This document shows, piece by piece, positions 29,593 to 37,314 of a DNA stretch of 37,314 nt. The DNA comes from Anaerolineae bacterium. Lineage in GTDB: Bacteria; Chloroflexota; Anaerolineae; JAAYZQ01. Location: assembly GCA_023544525.1 (NCBI GenBank), contig JAMJFU010000013.1:1-37314 (forward strand), in the 5' to 3' direction. Both the position numbers and the translations under genes were made by a program. The notes beneath the pieces were generated by a model. It saw nothing but the letters and a program-made list of their open reading frames with translations. It did no database searches and had not been told where the DNA came from. Each line of letters begins with the position of its first letter. The first letter of the stretch is position 1.

Positions 29593-29916
29593 CTAACGAT
29601 AGTCTTCGCGCACCGGGTGCCAGGCATCGAGCGCCTGGCAAGGCTCATCGAGGATGGTCGCCGAATGGGACACCCCAGGCGGGATGAGCACCCCATCTCC
29701 GGCCCTGAGGGTCTGCTTCTCCCCAGCCAGGTCAAAGACCATCGCGCCAGATACGACCCATGTGATCTGCTGGTGGGGATGTTGGTGTTCGGGGACGATG
29801 GCACCGGGCTCAAAGTCAAAGAAGGTGAGCATCACCCCTTCTAGATAGACTGCCCGGCGGCTTACGCCCGGTAGCATCTCGGTGGCGGGCAGGTCCTCCT
29901 TGCGAAAGTAGCTCAT
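29593..29916 (-). CDS. Cupin domain protein
   Basis: A 107-residue single-domain cupin. The first motif PEHQHPHQQITWVVSG supplies metal ligands H44, H46 and Q50, and the second (LRAGDGVLIPPGVSHSA) supplies H84. The usual glutamate of motif 1 is replaced by glutamine. It is the last gene of the minus-strand redox cluster, 27 bases after the osmC stop. The start at 29916 (GGGAG upstream) gives MSYFRKEDL; the frame is open eight codons further. A redox or metal-dependent small-molecule role is plausible from context but not shown. Confidence 0.85.
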   Translation of the reverse strand: MSYFRKEDLPATEMLPGVSRRAVYLEGVMLTFFDFEPGAIVPEHQHPHQQITWVVSGAMVFDLAGEKQTLRAGDGVLIPPGVSHSATILDEPCQALDAWHPVREDYR

Positions 29917-29943
29917 GTCTTCTCCCGTTGTCCCGGGCACAGC

Positions 29944-30369
29944 TTAATGCCGTAGCCCTTCCAGGTGTTCCGAGAATTCGATCTCACCGCGCAGCATCTT
30001 GTGTACCTCACAGGTTCGGGCTGCGTTGTACAGGATGCGCTGCTCCCGTGCAGTCAACCCTTCGCCTATATCCAGGTGGCTCACGAACCTGGTCCTGGTT
30101 TCACGACCCACAAACTCTGTCCGGCCCTCGACCGTGGCTGCCAGGCGGGTATAGGTGATCCCTTTGTAGTCGGCAACCGCCGCCATGGTGAGGACCATTC
30201 AAGCGCCCAGCGCCGCTCCGACCAACTCCAGAGGGCAGAAACCGGCCCCCGGACGGTCGATGCTGGTGCGTTGATCGGCCTCGAATGCCCGGTCGCCAGC
30301 GACGACCCGGACACGGTCGTTGCCCCGGTATTCGGTGGTCACCACGTTCACGAGCACCTCGTCAACCAT
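29944..30369 (-). CDS. OsmC-family peroxidase with in-frame TGA at the catalytic cysteine: candidate selenoprotein
   Basis: An OsmC/Ohr-type thiol peroxidase of 141 residues when TGA (30201-30199) is read as selenocysteine 57. Before it lie 56 in-frame codons starting MVDEVLVNVVTTEYRG and ending FCPLELVGAALGA; after it come MVLTMAAVADYKG and, near the end, RTCEVHK. In OsmC proteins the segment reads A-L-G-x-C, so the TGA replaces exactly the peroxidatic cysteine; the second family cysteine is C120. A GAGGAG precedes ATG 30369 by five bases. Read as a stop, only a 56-residue stub and an 84-residue fragment remain. A hairpin with a GGUU loop lies 16 bases after the TGA. OsmC-like selenoproteins are known from metagenomes. 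The alternative, a nonsense mutation, is less likely because the codon falls exactly on the catalytic position. Confidence 0.85.
30171..30198 (-). promoter_or_regulatory. Candidate SECIS element of the osmC gene
   Basis: On the minus strand, right after the TGA, CGGC (30182-30179), loop GGTT (30178-30175) and GCCG (30174-30171) form a perfect stem-loop; the apical loop begins 20 bases after the TGA. With one bulged A three more pairs extend it. In E. coli fdhF the loop is GGUC, 18 bases after the UGA. A second small hairpin, ATGGT/ACCAT (30198-30185), lies between. Its position inside the coding region fits bacterial SECIS elements read by SelB. Confidence 0.65.
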
Positions 30370-30460: not shown

Positions 30461-33025
30461 CTACCTGCTTGTGCGCAGCCAGCGCACGCTGTTGGAGCGG
30501 CACTGCGGGCAGGTCCTCTCCAGGTTGGCGCTAAAGTAGCCGGCCCACTCGTGCCCGCAGCGCATGCAGGCAAACTCGGCATCCTGGTTTTCGTCAGACT
30601 CTTTGGGATTGCGAGGGCTCGGCACCCGCGCACTCGCCAGCAGCTCGCGCGTACGCTCGACTTCCTCAGGCGAGACAGAGGCACGTTTCTTTTCAGCCTC
30701 GGTCATGATCGTCTGCCAACGAGGTCCCTCAGCAGCCGAGCACCACTCCAGGAGCAAGCGGTCAGGACGGAGCCCTTGCTTCTCCAGGCCATCCCACAGG
30801 CCATCCAGCCGGCGCGTGGTACTCCGGTTGGCGTCGATGTAGTGGCAGTCCACATAGTGACAGCCGGAGACCAGCACGACGGGTGCGCCTTTCTTGAAGG
30901 CATACCAGATGAACTCGGGGTTCACCCGACCCGAGCACATAGTGCGGATGATGCGGGCGTTGGGCGGATAGGCCATGCGGGCCACGCCGGCTGTGTCGGC
31001 CCCGGCGTAGGAGCACCAGTTACAGGCAAAGGTCACGACCTTTTGGCTGGGATCCTCATCCAGGATGGCGTCCAGCTGGGCATACATTGCCTGGTCAGAG
31101 AAGTGCCGCATCTCGATGGCCCCAAACTTGCATTCCGCGGCACAGGTGCCACACCCGGAGCAGGCCGCACTGGTGATATGTGCCACAGATTTCTTCTCCC
31201 AATGGATGGCACCGAAGGGACAGACGCCAGCACACTGGCCACACATTTTGCAGAGATCCTCGTCGACGACGGCGGTGATCGCCTCGACGGCAAACCTGCT
31301 CTTGTTGAGCAGGATTGCGGCGTGGGAGGCCGCGGCACTGGCCTGGGTCACGCTCTCGCGCACGTCTTTCGGGCTTTCGGCTGCACCTGCGATGTAGACG
31401 CCCTTGGTCGGCGTGTCCACCGGGCGAAGCTTGGGATGGGCTTCCTTGAGGAAACCGCTGGGGGACTTGGAGAGACTGACCATCTGGCGGATGGCTTCGG
31501 TGTTGGTGGCTGGTTTGCCGCCCACAGATAGCACCAGCATGTCAAATTCGTGGGTCTCCAGGCGGTTGGCGGTGGTGTTCTCGACGGTGACCCGCAGGTT
31601 GCCACTGGCGGGGTCCTCACGCACTTCGCCGGGCAGCCCCCGGATGTAGCGAACGCCGTTGCTCTTGGTGCGCATGAGCAGTTCTTCAAAGCCCTTGCCA
31701 AAGGTCCGCAGGTCCATATAAAAGACCGTGATCTCGGTATCAGGATAGTTGTCCTTGAGGTACTGGGCGTCTTTGACGGTATTCATGCAGCAGGTGTTGG
31801 AGCAGTATGGATAGCCTCGTTCTGGATCCTGGGTCCGGGAGCCAACGCACTGGATAAAGCCGATGTGCTTTGGCCTCGTCAAGTCGCCAGGCCGGGCGAA
31901 ATGGCCTTCCAACGGGCCACCCGTCGAGATCAGCCGCTCAAACTCCATGCTGGTGACGACATTGGGGAAGCGGGCGTAGCCATACTCGTCAACCGCAGTG
32001 GGATCATAGACCTCCATGCCCGTGGCGACGATGATGGCACCCACCTCCAGGTCGAGGAGCTCGTCCTGCATGTCAAAGTCGATGCACTTCTTCTCGCAAG
32101 CCTCGATGCACTTGCCACAGGCAATGGGGTTCTGTCCCAGGCATTCGTCCGCTGCTACGATGTAGGCAGACGGCACTGCCTGGGGGAAGGGGATGTGGAT
32201 GGCCTTGCGGCTGCCAAGCCCGATCTGGTATTCGTCAGGCACGACGACGGGACAGACCGCGGCACAGTCGCCACAGGCGGTACATTCGCCCTCATCGACA
32301 TAGCGGGCTTTTTTGCGGACCCTCGCCCGGAAATTGCCAACGTACCCAGAAACGTCCTCGACCTCCGCGTGGGTCAGCAGTTCGATGTTGGGATGTCGAC
32401 CGACATCCATCATTTTTGGCCCGAGAATTCATATACTACACTCTATGTCGGGATAGACCTTGTCGAGCTGGGCCATGATGCCACCAATAGAGGCCTTTTT
32501 CTCGACCAGATACACCTTGTGACCCGCATCAGCCAGGTCCAGTGCGGCCTGGATACCGGCGACCCCGCCGCCGATAACCATTGCCGCGTCGGTGACCGGG
32601 ATCTGCTCTTCGTCCTGAGGATAGAGCCAGTGAGCGCGCGCAACCGCAACTTTGACGATATCCTTGGCCTTGCGAGTGGCAGCTTCTCTGTCGCCAGGGG
32701 TTACCCAGGAGCAGTGTTCCCGGATATTGGCCATCTCCAATAGGTATGGGTTCAGGCCGGCACCCTCGATGCACTGGCGAAAGATCGCCTCGTAGGAGGT
32801 GGGCGAGCAGGAAGCGACCACCACACGGTTCAGGTTATGCTCGTAAATCGCCCGCTGGATCTCTTGCTGGCCCGGGTCGGCACAGGTGTACTTGTTGCGT
32901 ACCGCCACGGCTACGCCAGGCAGGTTCTCGGCGTAGGCTCGTAGCGCCTGCGTGTCCACGGCGCCGGCGATGTTCGACCCACAATCGCAGACGAACACCC
33001 CGATGCGCAGATTCTCTGGTGGCAA
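30461..33025 (-). CDS. hdrA: HdrA-MvhD fusion, heterodisulfide reductase-type flavoprotein with in-frame TGA read as selenocysteine
   Basis: FAD and Fe-S protein that, in Hdr complexes, bifurcates electrons between ferredoxin and a disulfide-type acceptor. It is 854 residues if TGA (32431-32429) is Sec199. In order: an N-terminal cysteine-rich region, the FAD motif GGGVAG (152-157), KVYPDIECSI-Sec-ILGPK (HdrA proteins normally have C-S-x-C-I-L), a ferredoxin pair (C248, C251, C254, C258 and NPIACGKCIEAC), a further C-x-n-CC cluster (YPYCSNTCCMNT), two more 4Fe-4S motifs (CKMCGQCAGVC, CSGCGTCAAEC), an MvhD-like domain (CNWCSYAGAD, IIRTMCSGRVNPEF, GCHYVDCHY) and a C-terminal zinc ribbon (CMRCGHEW, CPQC). 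The start is TTG 33025 with AAGGAGGA. Without Sec readthrough the gene splits into 198- and 650-codon halves. Confidence 0.9.
32391..32408 (-). promoter_or_regulatory. Candidate SECIS element of hdrA
   Basis: On the minus strand GGATGTC (32408-32402), loop GGTC (32401-32398), GACATCC (32397-32391): seven perfect pairs under a GGUC loop, the same apical loop as E. coli formate dehydrogenase SECIS elements. The loop begins 27 bases after the TGA, inside the range known for bacteria. It lies within the hdrA reading frame. Confidence 0.78.
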
Positions 33026-33089: not shown

Positions 33090-33560
33090 CTAGTTGTCCT
33101 GGTCCCGCTGCCACATCTCGTAGCGATGTCCGCGGATATAATCTGTCTCTTTCCGGCTCTGTCGGTCGCGGTGGGCCTTCTCCACTGCTTCGCGCACCGC
33201 TTGCCGGAATTCTTCCGAATCAAACTGCTCTTTCCGAAAGAAATCAAAGGCCTGAAACTCGCGGAAAGCCTTCCGCTGGGTCTCCATCGTCCCGTGACCG
33301 GTGACCATAATCACGCGGGTAAGTGCCTGGTTTTGGTGGATCTCGCTTAGCAAGAGCATGCCATCCTGGTTCTCCTCATCCGGTTCTACGAGGCGGATAT
33401 CAAGTATGGCGAGGTCCAGGTCTTTGGTGGTGGCCAAATAATCCCGCGCGCTCTGGAGCGTGTCCACGGCCCGGACATCGTGGCCCTCTCGCTGCAAAAG
33501 GCCTGTAAGCAGCTCTCGCCAGTCGGCGAAATCCTCGACGATCAAGATCTTGCCTCTCAA
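33090..33560 (-). CDS. Single-domain response regulator
   Basis: A 156-residue CheY-like receiver. E9-D10 (ILIVED), the phosphoacceptor D54 (AILDIRLV), T87 (VTGHG) and K110 (FRKEQ) form the acidic pocket. After the receiver only a short charged helix follows (VEKAHRDRQSRKETDYIRG), with no DNA-binding domain, so output is probably by protein contact rather than direct promoter binding. Start is TTG 33560 with GGAGG six bases upstream. It begins 22 bases after the kinase stop and ends 64 bases before hdrA. Confidence 0.9.
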   Translation of the reverse strand: MRGKILIVEDFADWRELLTGLLQREGHDVRAVDTLQSARDYLATTKDLDLAILDIRLVEPDEENQDGMLLLSEIHQNQALTRVIMVTGHGTMETQRKAFREFQAFDFFRKEQFDSEEFRQAVREAVEKAHRDRQSRKETDYIRGHRYEMWQRDQDN

Positions 33561-33582
33561 TGCCTGCCTCCAATCTCTGCCC

Positions 33583-35265
33583 CTAGGCCTCGAGCAATCC
33601 CGGGCTGTCGTGGGCTGGCAACCGGACGGTGAACGTAGCACCAGCACCCGGCCTGCTGTCGCAGACGATGGTGCCACCCTGGCGCTCGATAAAGGTGCGT
33701 ACCCACCAAAGGCCAAATCCCAGACCATCGGCGGTGGGTTTGAACATGTCCCACAGGTGGGCCATCTGCTCGGGCGCGATGCCTACTCCTGTATCGCTGA
33801 TCTGGATCGTGACCCAGTGTCCTGTATTGTCTGGTTCCAGACGGGTGCGGATCTCCAGCCACTGCCTGGTCCGACCGTCCATGGCCTTTCGCGCGTTGGT
33901 GATCAACTCGAGAAAGATGTCCACGAGCAGGGAACTACTCTCGACGGGCGGTAGCCCTTGCTCCAAGTCCAGGATGACCTGCACGTTGGGTGGCAGGTTG
34001 GCAGCCTGCAGCGCTTCATTCAGCAAGCGGTTGACATGTAACTGCACAGGGGGTCCAGGTTCCTGGAAGGGCCGGAAGAGCGCGTCTGACATTCTCAGGA
34101 CAAAACGCGCGTTGCGCTCGATCCGGTCCAGGTTGTCGTCGATCCAGTCCCGGTCTGGTTGCGGGACCTCCAGGTCCTTCAGAGTCCGGCGGACCTCGGC
34201 TGCGCTGACGGGCAGAATACCCACCAGGTTGTTGATGCGGTGGGCCAGAGCGGTGGCGGTCTGGCCCATTACGGTCCATTTCTCGGCGGCGACGCGGCGT
34301 TCCTGCTCATCCAGGAGTGCCTGGTGCATCAGTTGCAGTTTCTGATGTTGGGTCGCGTTCTGGATGGCGATGACCGCTTCCTGGGCCAATGCCTCCAGCA
34401 ATTCGACGTCATGTTGGTCAAAGGCGTTGCGGCGGGTGCTTTCTAGTAGAAGCACGCCGAGCAACTCCTCACGTTCGGGTTCCTCAAAGCGCGTCAGCAA
34501 TGGCACGGCGACACCGGCCTCCATCTCCTCAAAGAGCAGGACGTTGCGGGGATCGGCGTGGGCATCGTGGCAAAGGTATGGTCTGCGGTGTTGCGCAACC
34601 CAGCCGGTGATGCCCTGCCCTACGCGAAACCGGTAGGACTTGACCTCGGGCGTCCAACCTTCTCCCAGGTGGGCCTTGAGGACGAGATCACCGGTTCCGA
34701 TGTTGTACAGCCGCAAGGAGCCGTGTTCAGCACCGACCAGAAAGACCGCCTTCTCCAGGATCAGGTTCAGGACCCGATCCAGTTGCAGGCTGGAGCTAAG
34801 CGCGGTATCGATGACGTGCAGGGCGCGAAATTGGGCCGTCATGCGTGCCAGCCGATCTGCCTGCCGCAGTGCTGCGGCTGCCAGGTCGGCCAGAGGCTGG
34901 AGCAGACCCACATCTGCATCGTCAAAGACCCGGCCTGGGGTATCGTCAGCCACCACCAAGACACCCCGGACGGTCTCTGCCCACAGGCAAGGGACAGCCA
35001 ACACCATGCACTGGCCCGGGCATTCGCCTGTGGCGGGCTGTCGCGACTGCCATACCTGGCGGAGCAGGTCCTCTCCCCAAGGGACTTTAGCCAGCCCGTG
35101 GGCCCGGGCCAGAGACAGCTCCTCCCCTGACGGGTCACAGAGGTAGAAGGCACTGGCGCTGGCTCGAAGCAACAGGGTGGCCTGGCGGACAGTGCTCTCG
35201 AGGAAGGTGGTCTCGCAGACCTCGGCCATCAAGGCCGGCTGTTGGGCTGTGTCTATGCTATCCAT
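33583..35265 (-). CDS. Soluble GAF-domain histidine kinase
   Basis: Cytosolic sensor kinase of 560 residues with no membrane helix. Residues about 15-140 and 145-310 form two GAF domains (for example CLWAETVRGVLVVADD and GQGITGWVAQHRRPYLCHDA). The phosphorylated histidine is H342 in TALAHRINNLVG, the N box is ELITNARKAM (N457), and G boxes are ISDTGVGIAPE and GLGFGLWWVRTFIE. C43 and the cluster C82, C86, C93 in the first GAF domain could sense redox state, but this is only a possibility. It starts inside the last codons of hdrB (8-base overlap), so it is translated together with the Hdr subunits. Confidence 0.92.
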   Translation of the reverse strand: MDSIDTAQQPALMAEVCETTFLESTVRQATLLLRASASAFYLCDPSGEELSLARAHGLAKVPWGEDLLRQVWQSRQPATGECPGQCMVLAVPCLWAETVRGVLVVADDTPGRVFDDADVGLLQPLADLAAAALRQADRLARMTAQFRALHVIDTALSSSLQLDRVLNLILEKAVFLVGAEHGSLRLYNIGTGDLVLKAHLGEGWTPEVKSYRFRVGQGITGWVAQHRRPYLCHDAHADPRNVLLFEEMEAGVAVPLLTRFEEPEREELLGVLLLESTRRNAFDQHDVELLEALAQEAVIAIQNATQHQKLQLMHQALLDEQERRVAAEKWTVMGQTATALAHRINNLVGILPVSAAEVRRTLKDLEVPQPDRDWIDDNLDRIERNARFVLRMSDALFRPFQEPGPPVQLHVNRLLNEALQAANLPPNVQVILDLEQGLPPVESSSLLVDIFLELITNARKAMDGRTRQWLEIRTRLEPDNTGHWVTIQISDTGVGIAPEQMAHLWDMFKPTADGLGFGLWWVRTFIERQGGTIVCDSRPGAGATFTVRLPAHDSPGLLEA

Positions 35266-36169
35266 TAGAAGCAGCCCCAGGGCATCGAGCCCGTCCCGTA
35301 AAGGCCTGGATCAGTTCCCGCGACTTGACCCGGTTCAAGCGCAACTGCATCTCGTCGGCCGAATAGCCCAGGGCCAGTCCCAGTAGCTGGGGATAGTAGA
35401 GCACCGGCAAACGATAGCTCACATCGAACTGCCGCTCGATGCTGCGCTGGTTGATCTCGTACATAATGTCGCAGAAGGGACAGATGACGATCATGCCGTC
35501 GGCGTCCGTGATGTGAACGTGGTCCAGTTTGCCCTTGGCGATGCCCAACGCGGTATCAGGGTCGACTGCCAGGATCCCGCCGCCACAGCAAGCGTCCTCT
35601 TCTTCGTACGGGATCAGGCGCGCGCCGGTCGCGGCAACCAGATCGCCCAGCGTATGGGGGTTCTCGGGATCGTCAAAACCATCATAGATGTGCGCCGGTT
35701 TCAAAAAGTGGCAGCCATAATGCACGGCAAAGCCAAAACCAGACAGATCAACAGATGACTCTTGTCGCAGCCGCTCCGGGCCGACCTCTTCGTACAGGAT
35801 GCGGGCATAGTGGCGGACTGTGACCGTGCCCGCGTAACGCCGGCCTGTGTTCTCGGACAATTGGTCGTTGATCCGCGCCCGCAAGGCGCTGTCCTCCTGG
35901 AGATGTTTGTTCGCCTCTACAAGGGTGCTGGTGCACGCGCTGCATAGGGTACATACATCCAGCCCATGCTCTTCGGCCAGGGCCAGGTTATTGGCTGCCA
36001 TCAACAGGGCTGCGTCCCAGCTCAGTGGCTTGGCAGGGTAGCCACAGCAGGCGAATCCGTCCAGATCCACCAACTCGATCCCCAGGTGGTCCGCCGTCCG
36101 CCGTGCTGCGACCTCGTAGTTCATGGCCCGGACCGGCACAGTGCAGCCCAGATAGAGTGCGAATCTCAT
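35258..36169 (-). CDS. hdrB: Heterodisulfide reductase subunit B
   Basis: Catalytic subunit of Hdr, 303 residues with two CCG domains (CxnCCGxnCxxC) that hold non-cubane 4Fe-4S clusters reducing a disulfide. The first domain has C9 (YLGCTVP), C41-C42 (FACCGYP) and LCSACTSTL; the second has HYGCHFLKP, DACCGGG and ICPFCDIMYE. The start overlaps the hdrC stop by four bases (ATGA), and its end overlaps the kinase start. In non-methanogens the natural disulfide is unknown. Both CCG motifs are intact. Confidence 0.92.
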   Translation of the reverse strand: MRFALYLGCTVPVRAMNYEVAARRTADHLGIELVDLDGFACCGYPAKPLSWDAALLMAANNLALAEEHGLDVCTLCSACTSTLVEANKHLQEDSALRARINDQLSENTGRRYAGTVTVRHYARILYEEVGPERLRQESSVDLSGFGFAVHYGCHFLKPAHIYDGFDDPENPHTLGDLVAATGARLIPYEEEDACCGGGILAVDPDTALGIAKGKLDHVHITDADGMIVICPFCDIMYEINQRSIERQFDVSYRLPVLYYPQLLGLALGYSADEMQLRLNRVKSRELIQAFTGRARCPGAASNG

Positions 36170-36678
36170 GACTCAACCTCCTCGAGCACCCCACTGCGCA
36201 CCAGGATGCGGCGCACCTCGTCGCCTCGTTCCTGGATCGGCGGCAGACCTGCCTCTTGGCGTCGCTGGTTTTCATAGTTGGTGATCTCGTACAATCGCCC
36301 GTGGTCGCGCAGCAACTCGGCCTGCTGGCGGAAGGCAGGCGGGACATGTCCCTCGCGAACAGCGATATTGCGAATGGCATTCATGAGGTCGGGGATGTGC
36401 ACATCCTGGGGACATCGTTCGTAGCAGGTGTAACAGGTCGAGCACAACCACACAAACTCACTGGCCAGTACTTCCTGGCGCATGCCCAAAAGGGCCATAC
36501 GCACGATGCGGCGCGGGTTGTACTTCTCCGTCATCCCCGCCACGGGGCAGCCCGCCACGCAGGTGCCGCACGAGAAGCAGCGCATGAATCGCTCTCCCCC
36601 TGGCTCGGCCAGGATCTCGTTCCGAAAGTTGGGCTCGAGATCGCCGACGTCGATGATACGCTCCCTCGTCTCAGGCAC
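36166..36678 (-). CDS. hdrC: Heterodisulfide reductase subunit C
   Basis: Electron-transfer subunit linking HdrA to HdrB, 170 residues. Two 4Fe-4S motifs are clear: C34-x2-C37-x2-C40-x3-C44 (CFSCGTCVAGCPV) and C79-x2-C82-x2-C85-x3-C89 (CSTCYTCYERCPQ). No membrane segment is present, so this is the soluble HdrABC type rather than HdrDE. The start is GTG 36678 behind GAGGAG. It follows the CCG protein gene by 59 bases. Confidence 0.92.
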   Translation of the reverse strand: MPETRERIIDVGDLEPNFRNEILAEPGGERFMRCFSCGTCVAGCPVAGMTEKYNPRRIVRMALLGMRQEVLASEFVWLCSTCYTCYERCPQDVHIPDLMNAIRNIAVREGHVPPAFRQQAELLRDHGRLYEITNYENQRRQEAGLPPIQERGDEVRRILVRSGVLEEVES

Positions 36679-36737
36679 GTTCCTGTCTCCTCACCTCGTC
36701 CTGTATGCCACAGCTTCCGCTGCCCCCCAATGAGCCC

Positions 36738-37314
36738 TCAATCAAGGGCCTGGCCGACCCAGGTAATCAGATCCTCGACCTGGACCGCGCGTTCCTCGTC
36801 CAGATCCCGTGCGGCACAGGAGAGATGGATCTGGCACTTGGGGCAGGTGGTCAGCATCACCCGAGCCCCTGTGTCTCTGGCTTGCTGCAGTTTCTCCTGT
36901 TGGATCAGCTTGGAACAACCGCTGCAGTTGACCCAGGCCGTCGATCCACAGCACATAGCCCGCTCGCGATTGTCCTCCATCTCGGCCAGCTCCAACTCGG
37001 GCACAGCCTGGATAACCTTGCGCGGCGGCTCGTATACCTTCAGATAGCGGCCCATGCGACAAGGGTCGTGATAGGTGATCAGGCCAGGCCGCGGGTTGAA
37101 CTCCAGGTTGCCCGCGTCGAGCTCTTGGTCCAATAGCTCGGCCAGATGCATCATCTCGAAGGGTAGCTGGCCGACCATGGCCGGATAGTCGTTCTTGAAG
37201 GCGTTGTAACATTCGGCGCAGGTGAACACGATCTTTTTGGCGCCGCTTCCCTTGAGCGCCTCAAGGTTCAATTCTGCCAGCCGCCGGAAACTCTCCACAT
37301 CCCCAGCCAACAAG
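36738..37314 (-). CDS. (Fe-S)-binding CCG domain protein (5' truncated by window edge)
   Basis: C-terminal part of a larger protein; 191 residues are visible and the frame is open to the right edge. It has FTCAECYNAF, a cysteine-rich CCG domain (DPCRMGRYL, MCCGSTAWVNCSGCSK, TTCPKCQIHL), as in HdrD, GlpC or the C-terminal part of other Fe-S oxidoreductases. N-terminal ferredoxin motifs would lie outside the window, so the exact type is open. It is first in the visible Hdr operon and probably a partner or donor/acceptor of HdrABC. Confidence 0.82.
   Translation of the reverse strand, partial: LLAGDVESFRRLAELNLEALKGSGAKKIVFTCAECYNAFKNDYPAMVGQLPFEMMHLAELLDQELDAGNLEFNPRPGLITYHDPCRMGRYLKVYEPPRKVIQAVPELELAEMEDNRERAMCCGSTAWVNCSGCSKLIQQEKLQQARDTGARVMLTTCPKCQIHLSCAARDLDEERAVQVEDLITWVGQALD

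Follow-up and report, generated by a model that had tools for sequence, protein, structure and literature searches.

An OsmC-family protein from an Anaerolineae bacterium with a probable selenocysteine at its peroxidatic position and a recurrent lipoate ligase gene context

Described OsmC selenoproteins and lipoyl-linked redox systems

Peroxidases of the Ohr/OsmC family use a reactive (peroxidatic) cysteine and a second cysteine, and their catalytic arginine is placed differently in Ohr and in OsmC (PMC5962072). OsmC-like selenoproteins with a UxxT motif were reported in 2005 from the Sargasso Sea and in 2008 from GOS (PMC1088965, PMC2398784). Searching 400 genomes of the phylum with the family model NF041052 (OsmC_like_Se) returned 26 matches over the cut-off, 25 of them with an internal TGA. 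HdrA proteins include another known selenoprotein group, with a CxxU motif. Lipoylated proteins serve as the reductants of Ohr (PMC5962072), and GcvH-like LbpA serves Hdr-like sulfur oxidation in the sHdr-LbpA system, which has its own lipoate ligase (PMC6067878, PMC10332631). In Trichomonas hydrogenosomes, OsmC works with an incomplete glycine decarboxylase complex, as the title of one paper states (reference 8 of PMC10332631).

The locus described here lies in a window of 37,314 nucleotides, the whole stretch of DNA that was analysed. It carries an osmC-like gene interrupted by an in-frame TGA. The encoded protein resembles the Ohr/OsmC cysteine peroxidases in fold and in the positions of the reactive residue and the second cysteine. 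It differs from them in a predicted selenocysteine where they have the peroxidatic cysteine, and in an extra Cys45. With the NF041052 selenoproteins it shares the OsmC fold family, selenocysteine at the peroxidatic column, a later second cysteine and a hairpin past the TGA. The motifs are nevertheless distinct: NF041052 members have UxxT (FULLTQ), whereas the window clade has UxxxT together with CPxEL, which contains the extra C45. The window protein scores 23.5 bits against NF041052, below the cut-off of 95. In a tree rebuilt without the long branches L033 and L035, which had distorted the first version, the window clade forms a branch of its own (support 100/99). The AU test does not reject a joint origin of selenocysteine in the two OsmC clades (p 0.59), and an independent gain is therefore not claimed. 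The window protein represents a distinct branch among already known OsmC selenoproteins and is very probably a real selenoprotein.

The osmC-like gene, its TGA codon and its relatives

The features of the gene are as follows.

29944 to 30369, minus strand: osmC-like gene with an in-frame TGA (Sec57), 141 residues, identified by translation, Pfam OsmC, an alignment of 15 homologues and a fold match
30199 to 30201, minus strand: TGA, putative selenocysteine codon 57 in the peroxidatic cysteine column of OsmC proteins, identified from the codons of the relatives
30169 to 30184, minus strand: SECIS-like hairpin with core stem CGGC/GCCG (30182-30179 and 30174-30171) and loop GGTT (30178-30175)

Translation from 30369 to 29944 gives MVDEVLVN...GAALGA-U-MVLTMAAVADYKG...CEVHKML..., with a single in-frame TGA at 30201-30199. 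This agrees with an earlier sequence-only reading, which had placed the TGA between A-L-G-A and MVLTMAAVADYKG, noted the retained C120 and located a CGGC-GGTT-GCCG hairpin exactly 16 nucleotides past the TGA. Frame pairs joined by a TGA are numerous by chance within the window; among the pairs inspected by eye, one protein across both sides of the TGA was recognised in the osmC-like frame and in hdrA (TGA 32431-32429) alone. With the TGA read as cysteine, the protein matches Pfam OsmC (PF02566) at 51.7 bits against a cut-off of 27.5. Its predicted structure has a mean pLDDT of 89, and the entries in the PDB that it matches best are OsmC/Ohr proteins (Foldseek match to 3cje, E 1.8e-6). Both functional columns of the family are occupied, the peroxidatic one by U57 and the resolving one by the invariant C120, and the local motif is U57-M-V-L-T61.

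Relatives were searched in 396 genomes and then across the class with a profile. The first search defined a compact group of 16 members, the window included and all confined to its class, in which 15 carry TGA and one (L031) carries TGC, a cysteine codon, at the same position. The class-wide search recovered the same 16, the weakest at 147 bits and the next match at 50. A contig scan of genomes yielded one relative, and a plasmid search gave three distant OsmC fusion proteins and nothing else. More distant OsmC proteins have cysteine at this column in a wider alignment. Residues invariant in the group include C45, P46, E48, L49, U/C57, T61, K69, R108, N115 and C120, among others. C45 is a third cysteine specific to the clade; the remaining OsmC rows displayed in the wider alignment do not have it.

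The sequence past the TGA is conserved in the relatives, where decay would have spoken against readthrough. Between the window and a relative of the same family, this part has a dN of 0.22 with dS saturated. It is therefore not decayed, which indicates that purifying selection is acting on it. The alternative, that the TGA is a true stop belonging to a pseudogene, a sequencing error or an 84-residue protein that starts past it, begins from the 84-residue frame given by conventional ORF calling, which the sequence-only reading had also described. That frame matches no NCBIfam family, and no ribosome-binding site is evident ahead of the ATG behind the TGA; a ribosome-binding-like GAGGAG stands ahead of the full-length ATG. 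Selection on the downstream part and the recurrence of this TGA across 15 genomes that were assembled separately also speak against a true stop, as do the covarying hairpin and the encoded SelA, SelD and tRNA-Sec described below. A true stop is accordingly very improbable.

The SECIS-like hairpin and the selenocysteine machinery

Covariation in the hairpin was assessed in an ungapped alignment of 14 distinct selenocysteine-encoding sequences. The four core pairs (CGGC-GGUU-GCCG) are formed in all 14. Codons 63 and 66 pair through their third positions, as G-C in eight sequences, as U-A in five and as A-U in one. Shuffling one side restored complete pairing in 8 of 200,000 trials, a figure in which the relatedness of the sequences is retained. 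The changes in the pair are nearly all synonymous, since codon 63 encodes Ala in 12 sequences and Ser in two and codon 66 always encodes Ala. Each of the two outer pairs is present in 10 of the 14 sequences; the window has a G.A mismatch at one of these positions. Thirteen of the 14 sequences begin the loop with G, although GCG accounts for roughly 22% of the Ala codons in a set of window genes. The covarying pair is broken to U.U in the cysteine relative L031. The hairpin of the window folds moderately better than shuffled sequences (z -2.4). No Rfam family matched anywhere in the window at the gathering threshold, and a search for promoters and terminators gave no useful result. The osmC hairpin is a credible bacterial SECIS.

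L031 (in genome G044) is the sole cysteine member of the group and clusters with the selenocysteine member L030 (support 99/98). It retains a GGTC loop without the covarying stem pair. It may be a case of selenocysteine replaced by cysteine in a genome where SelA and SelB are still present.

Most components for selenocysteine insertion were located in the genome of the window. SelA scores 570 bits, and a tRNA-Sec with anticodon UCA scores 67 bits. Two SelD matches exceed the cut-off, on contigs C179 (L047) and C515 (L046). SelB is represented in this assembly by a 59-residue C-terminal piece alone, at the end of contig C213. The best match of the SelB profile, on C480, was set aside because its sequence looks like that of an EF-Tu fragment. 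Among 18 genomes checked, SelB exceeds the cut-off in 14 and SelA in 17. These include G044, with the cysteine form, and G009 and G040, in which no OsmC of the clade was found. Presence of the machinery is therefore a necessary condition and not a diagnostic one. As a side observation on selD, one match contains an in-frame TGA and probably encodes a selenocysteine-containing SelD; the other lies inside a 770-residue open frame and may be a fusion.

The cysteine/selenocysteine column, the covarying hairpin and most of the machinery uphold the earlier proposal of selenocysteine at the OsmC peroxidatic position: the homologue alignment that the sequence-only reading had called for gives TGA in 14 relatives and TGC in L031, and its hairpin covaries. 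In all likelihood, the gene encodes an OsmC-family selenoprotein with UGA codon 57 read as selenocysteine. Both the decoding and the active-site position of U57 are supported by sequence evidence. What that reading had overlooked is the third cysteine, the selenocysteine codon of the adjacent hdrA and the lipoate and Hdr gene context.

Gene context and possible redox partners

In minus-strand order, the neighbourhood comprises a CCG protein, an HdrC-like and an HdrB-like protein, a GAF histidine kinase, a response regulator, HdrA-FlpD (Sec), Sec-OsmC and a cupin. The Hdr-type genes upstream (35258 to 37313) were assigned with Pfam CCG and Fer4.

36738 to 37313, minus strand: CCG protein
36166 to 36678, minus strand: HdrC-like protein
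35258 to 36169, minus strand: HdrB-like CCG protein
30461 to 33025, minus strand: hdrA, HdrA2 type with FlpD domain (NF040770 and Pfam FlpD, TGA read through)
32391 to 32408, minus strand: SECIS-like hairpin of hdrA, GGATGTC-GGTC-GACATCC, 20 nucleotides past its TGA (fold, single sequence)
29593 to 29925, minus strand: Cupin-domain gene directly downstream of osmC (Pfam Cupin_2)

With its TGA read through, hdrA scores 1117 bits against NF040770, whose cut-off is 1100. The TGA at 32431-32429 on the minus strand falls in a CSI-U (CxxU) motif, the position already known from HdrA selenoproteins, and recurs in the relative L052. Here, however, such an HdrA is encoded beside a Sec-OsmC gene, a pairing not found in the literature searched. 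Conventional gene calling would split this hdrA in two. Between the HdrB-like gene and hdrA (33090-35265, minus strand) lie the genes for the GAF-domain histidine kinase and the response regulator, a pair that suggests local redox or sulfur regulation. No cupin gene was found near osmC in the relatives by tblastn of their neighbourhoods.

The new observation concerns the genes upstream of osmC in the relatives. A lipoate-protein ligase gene (PF21948) lies directly upstream in 9 of 14 selenocysteine-encoding relatives, drawn from seven families, often with GcvH-like or Hdr genes: five have a GcvH-like gene (PF01597) near osmC, and two have hdrA there. Of the 15 Sec loci, 12 carry the ligase, a GcvH-like gene or hdrA, or several of these, within about 5 kb. 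At the remaining three, the upstream genes look housekeeping or unrelated by inspection. At the genome level, a ligase above 370 bits is present in 14 of the 16 clade genomes versus 28 of 380 others (Fisher p 2.6e-13, a test that ignores relatedness). In the window's own genome, HdrD-like, GcvH-like and ligase genes sit together on contig C399 and not on the osmC contig. Such a cluster of HdrD-like, GcvH-like and lipoate ligase genes recurs in the class, often with HdrA (L108 on C399 of genome G000, and L109-L118). The ligase/GcvH/Hdr module is also present in genomes in which no OsmC of the clade was found, so OsmC is at most accessory to it.

Because the ligase gene lies directly upstream, often accompanied by GcvH-like or Hdr genes, a lipoyl-dependent seleno-peroxidase or a dithiol oxidoreductase is suggested. 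In the preferred explanation, the hairpin just downstream guides decoding of UGA codon 57 as selenocysteine. The selenolate of U57 occupies the position of the Ohr/OsmC peroxidatic cysteine, with C120 as the resolving partner. A GcvH-like protein would most likely return oxidised OsmC to its reduced form through its dihydrolipoyl arm. The ligase encoded beside osmC in most relatives would lipoylate that GcvH-like protein, and heterodisulfide-reductase proteins could be the electron source. Peroxidase activity is presumed here from the family, and lipoyl donor and Hdr coupling are read from gene context. The evidence for lipoyl reduction of Ohr belongs to a subfamily other than that of the Sec-OsmC. 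This mechanism as a whole is put forward tentatively, at a little under an even chance. A broader proposal, in which the Anaerolineae seleno-OsmC subfamily belongs to a lipoyl-carrier/Hdr redox chain and exchanges electrons with a lipoylated GcvH-like protein, is conceivable but more doubtful. No such chain with a seleno-OsmC was found in the literature searched. The sHdr-LbpA system is comparable in that genes for Hdr-type proteins and for a GcvH-like carrier are grouped with one for a lipoate ligase; here, by contrast, the HdrA is of the HdrA2-FlpD type and an OsmC selenoprotein is present. OsmC is absent from the text of the LbpA paper, and a literature search combining OsmC, lipoate and heterodisulfide reductase met OsmC just in a reference list.

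Two other functional readings draw on the same context. The Sec-OsmC could be a peroxidase reduced by thioredoxin or a general thiol system, its lipoate and Hdr neighbours marking a shared anaerobic redox island. The variable context, with three of 15 Sec loci lacking these neighbours, and the existence of the module without OsmC are consistent with this. It accounts less readily for the ligase directly upstream in nine relatives from seven families, or for its enrichment in clade genomes, relatedness again being ignored, and is regarded as unlikely. The main alternative to a lipoyl-reduced seleno-peroxidase is a dithiol/selenol oxidoreductase without peroxidase function, acting through U57, C120 and C45 on a lipoyl carrier or on sulfur species in an Hdr system. 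The invariance of C45 in the clade and its absence from other OsmC rows point in this direction, together with the Hdr and GcvH-like neighbours and the role of LbpA in Hdr-like sulfur oxidation elsewhere. Against it, family members of tested activity are peroxidases and the HdrA encoded here is of the HdrA2-FlpD type; this function also seems improbable.

Ordinary gene calling would reduce the Sec-OsmC to 84 residues and lose its active site. Reading through the TGA extends the OsmC selenoproteins by a separate branch and provides a testable guess at the reductant. If the lipoyl-dependent seleno-peroxidase mechanism is true, selenium, lipoate and heterodisulfide-reductase chemistry would be joined in one chain, and the uses of GcvH-like lipoyl carriers would extend past glycine cleavage and sulfur oxidation.
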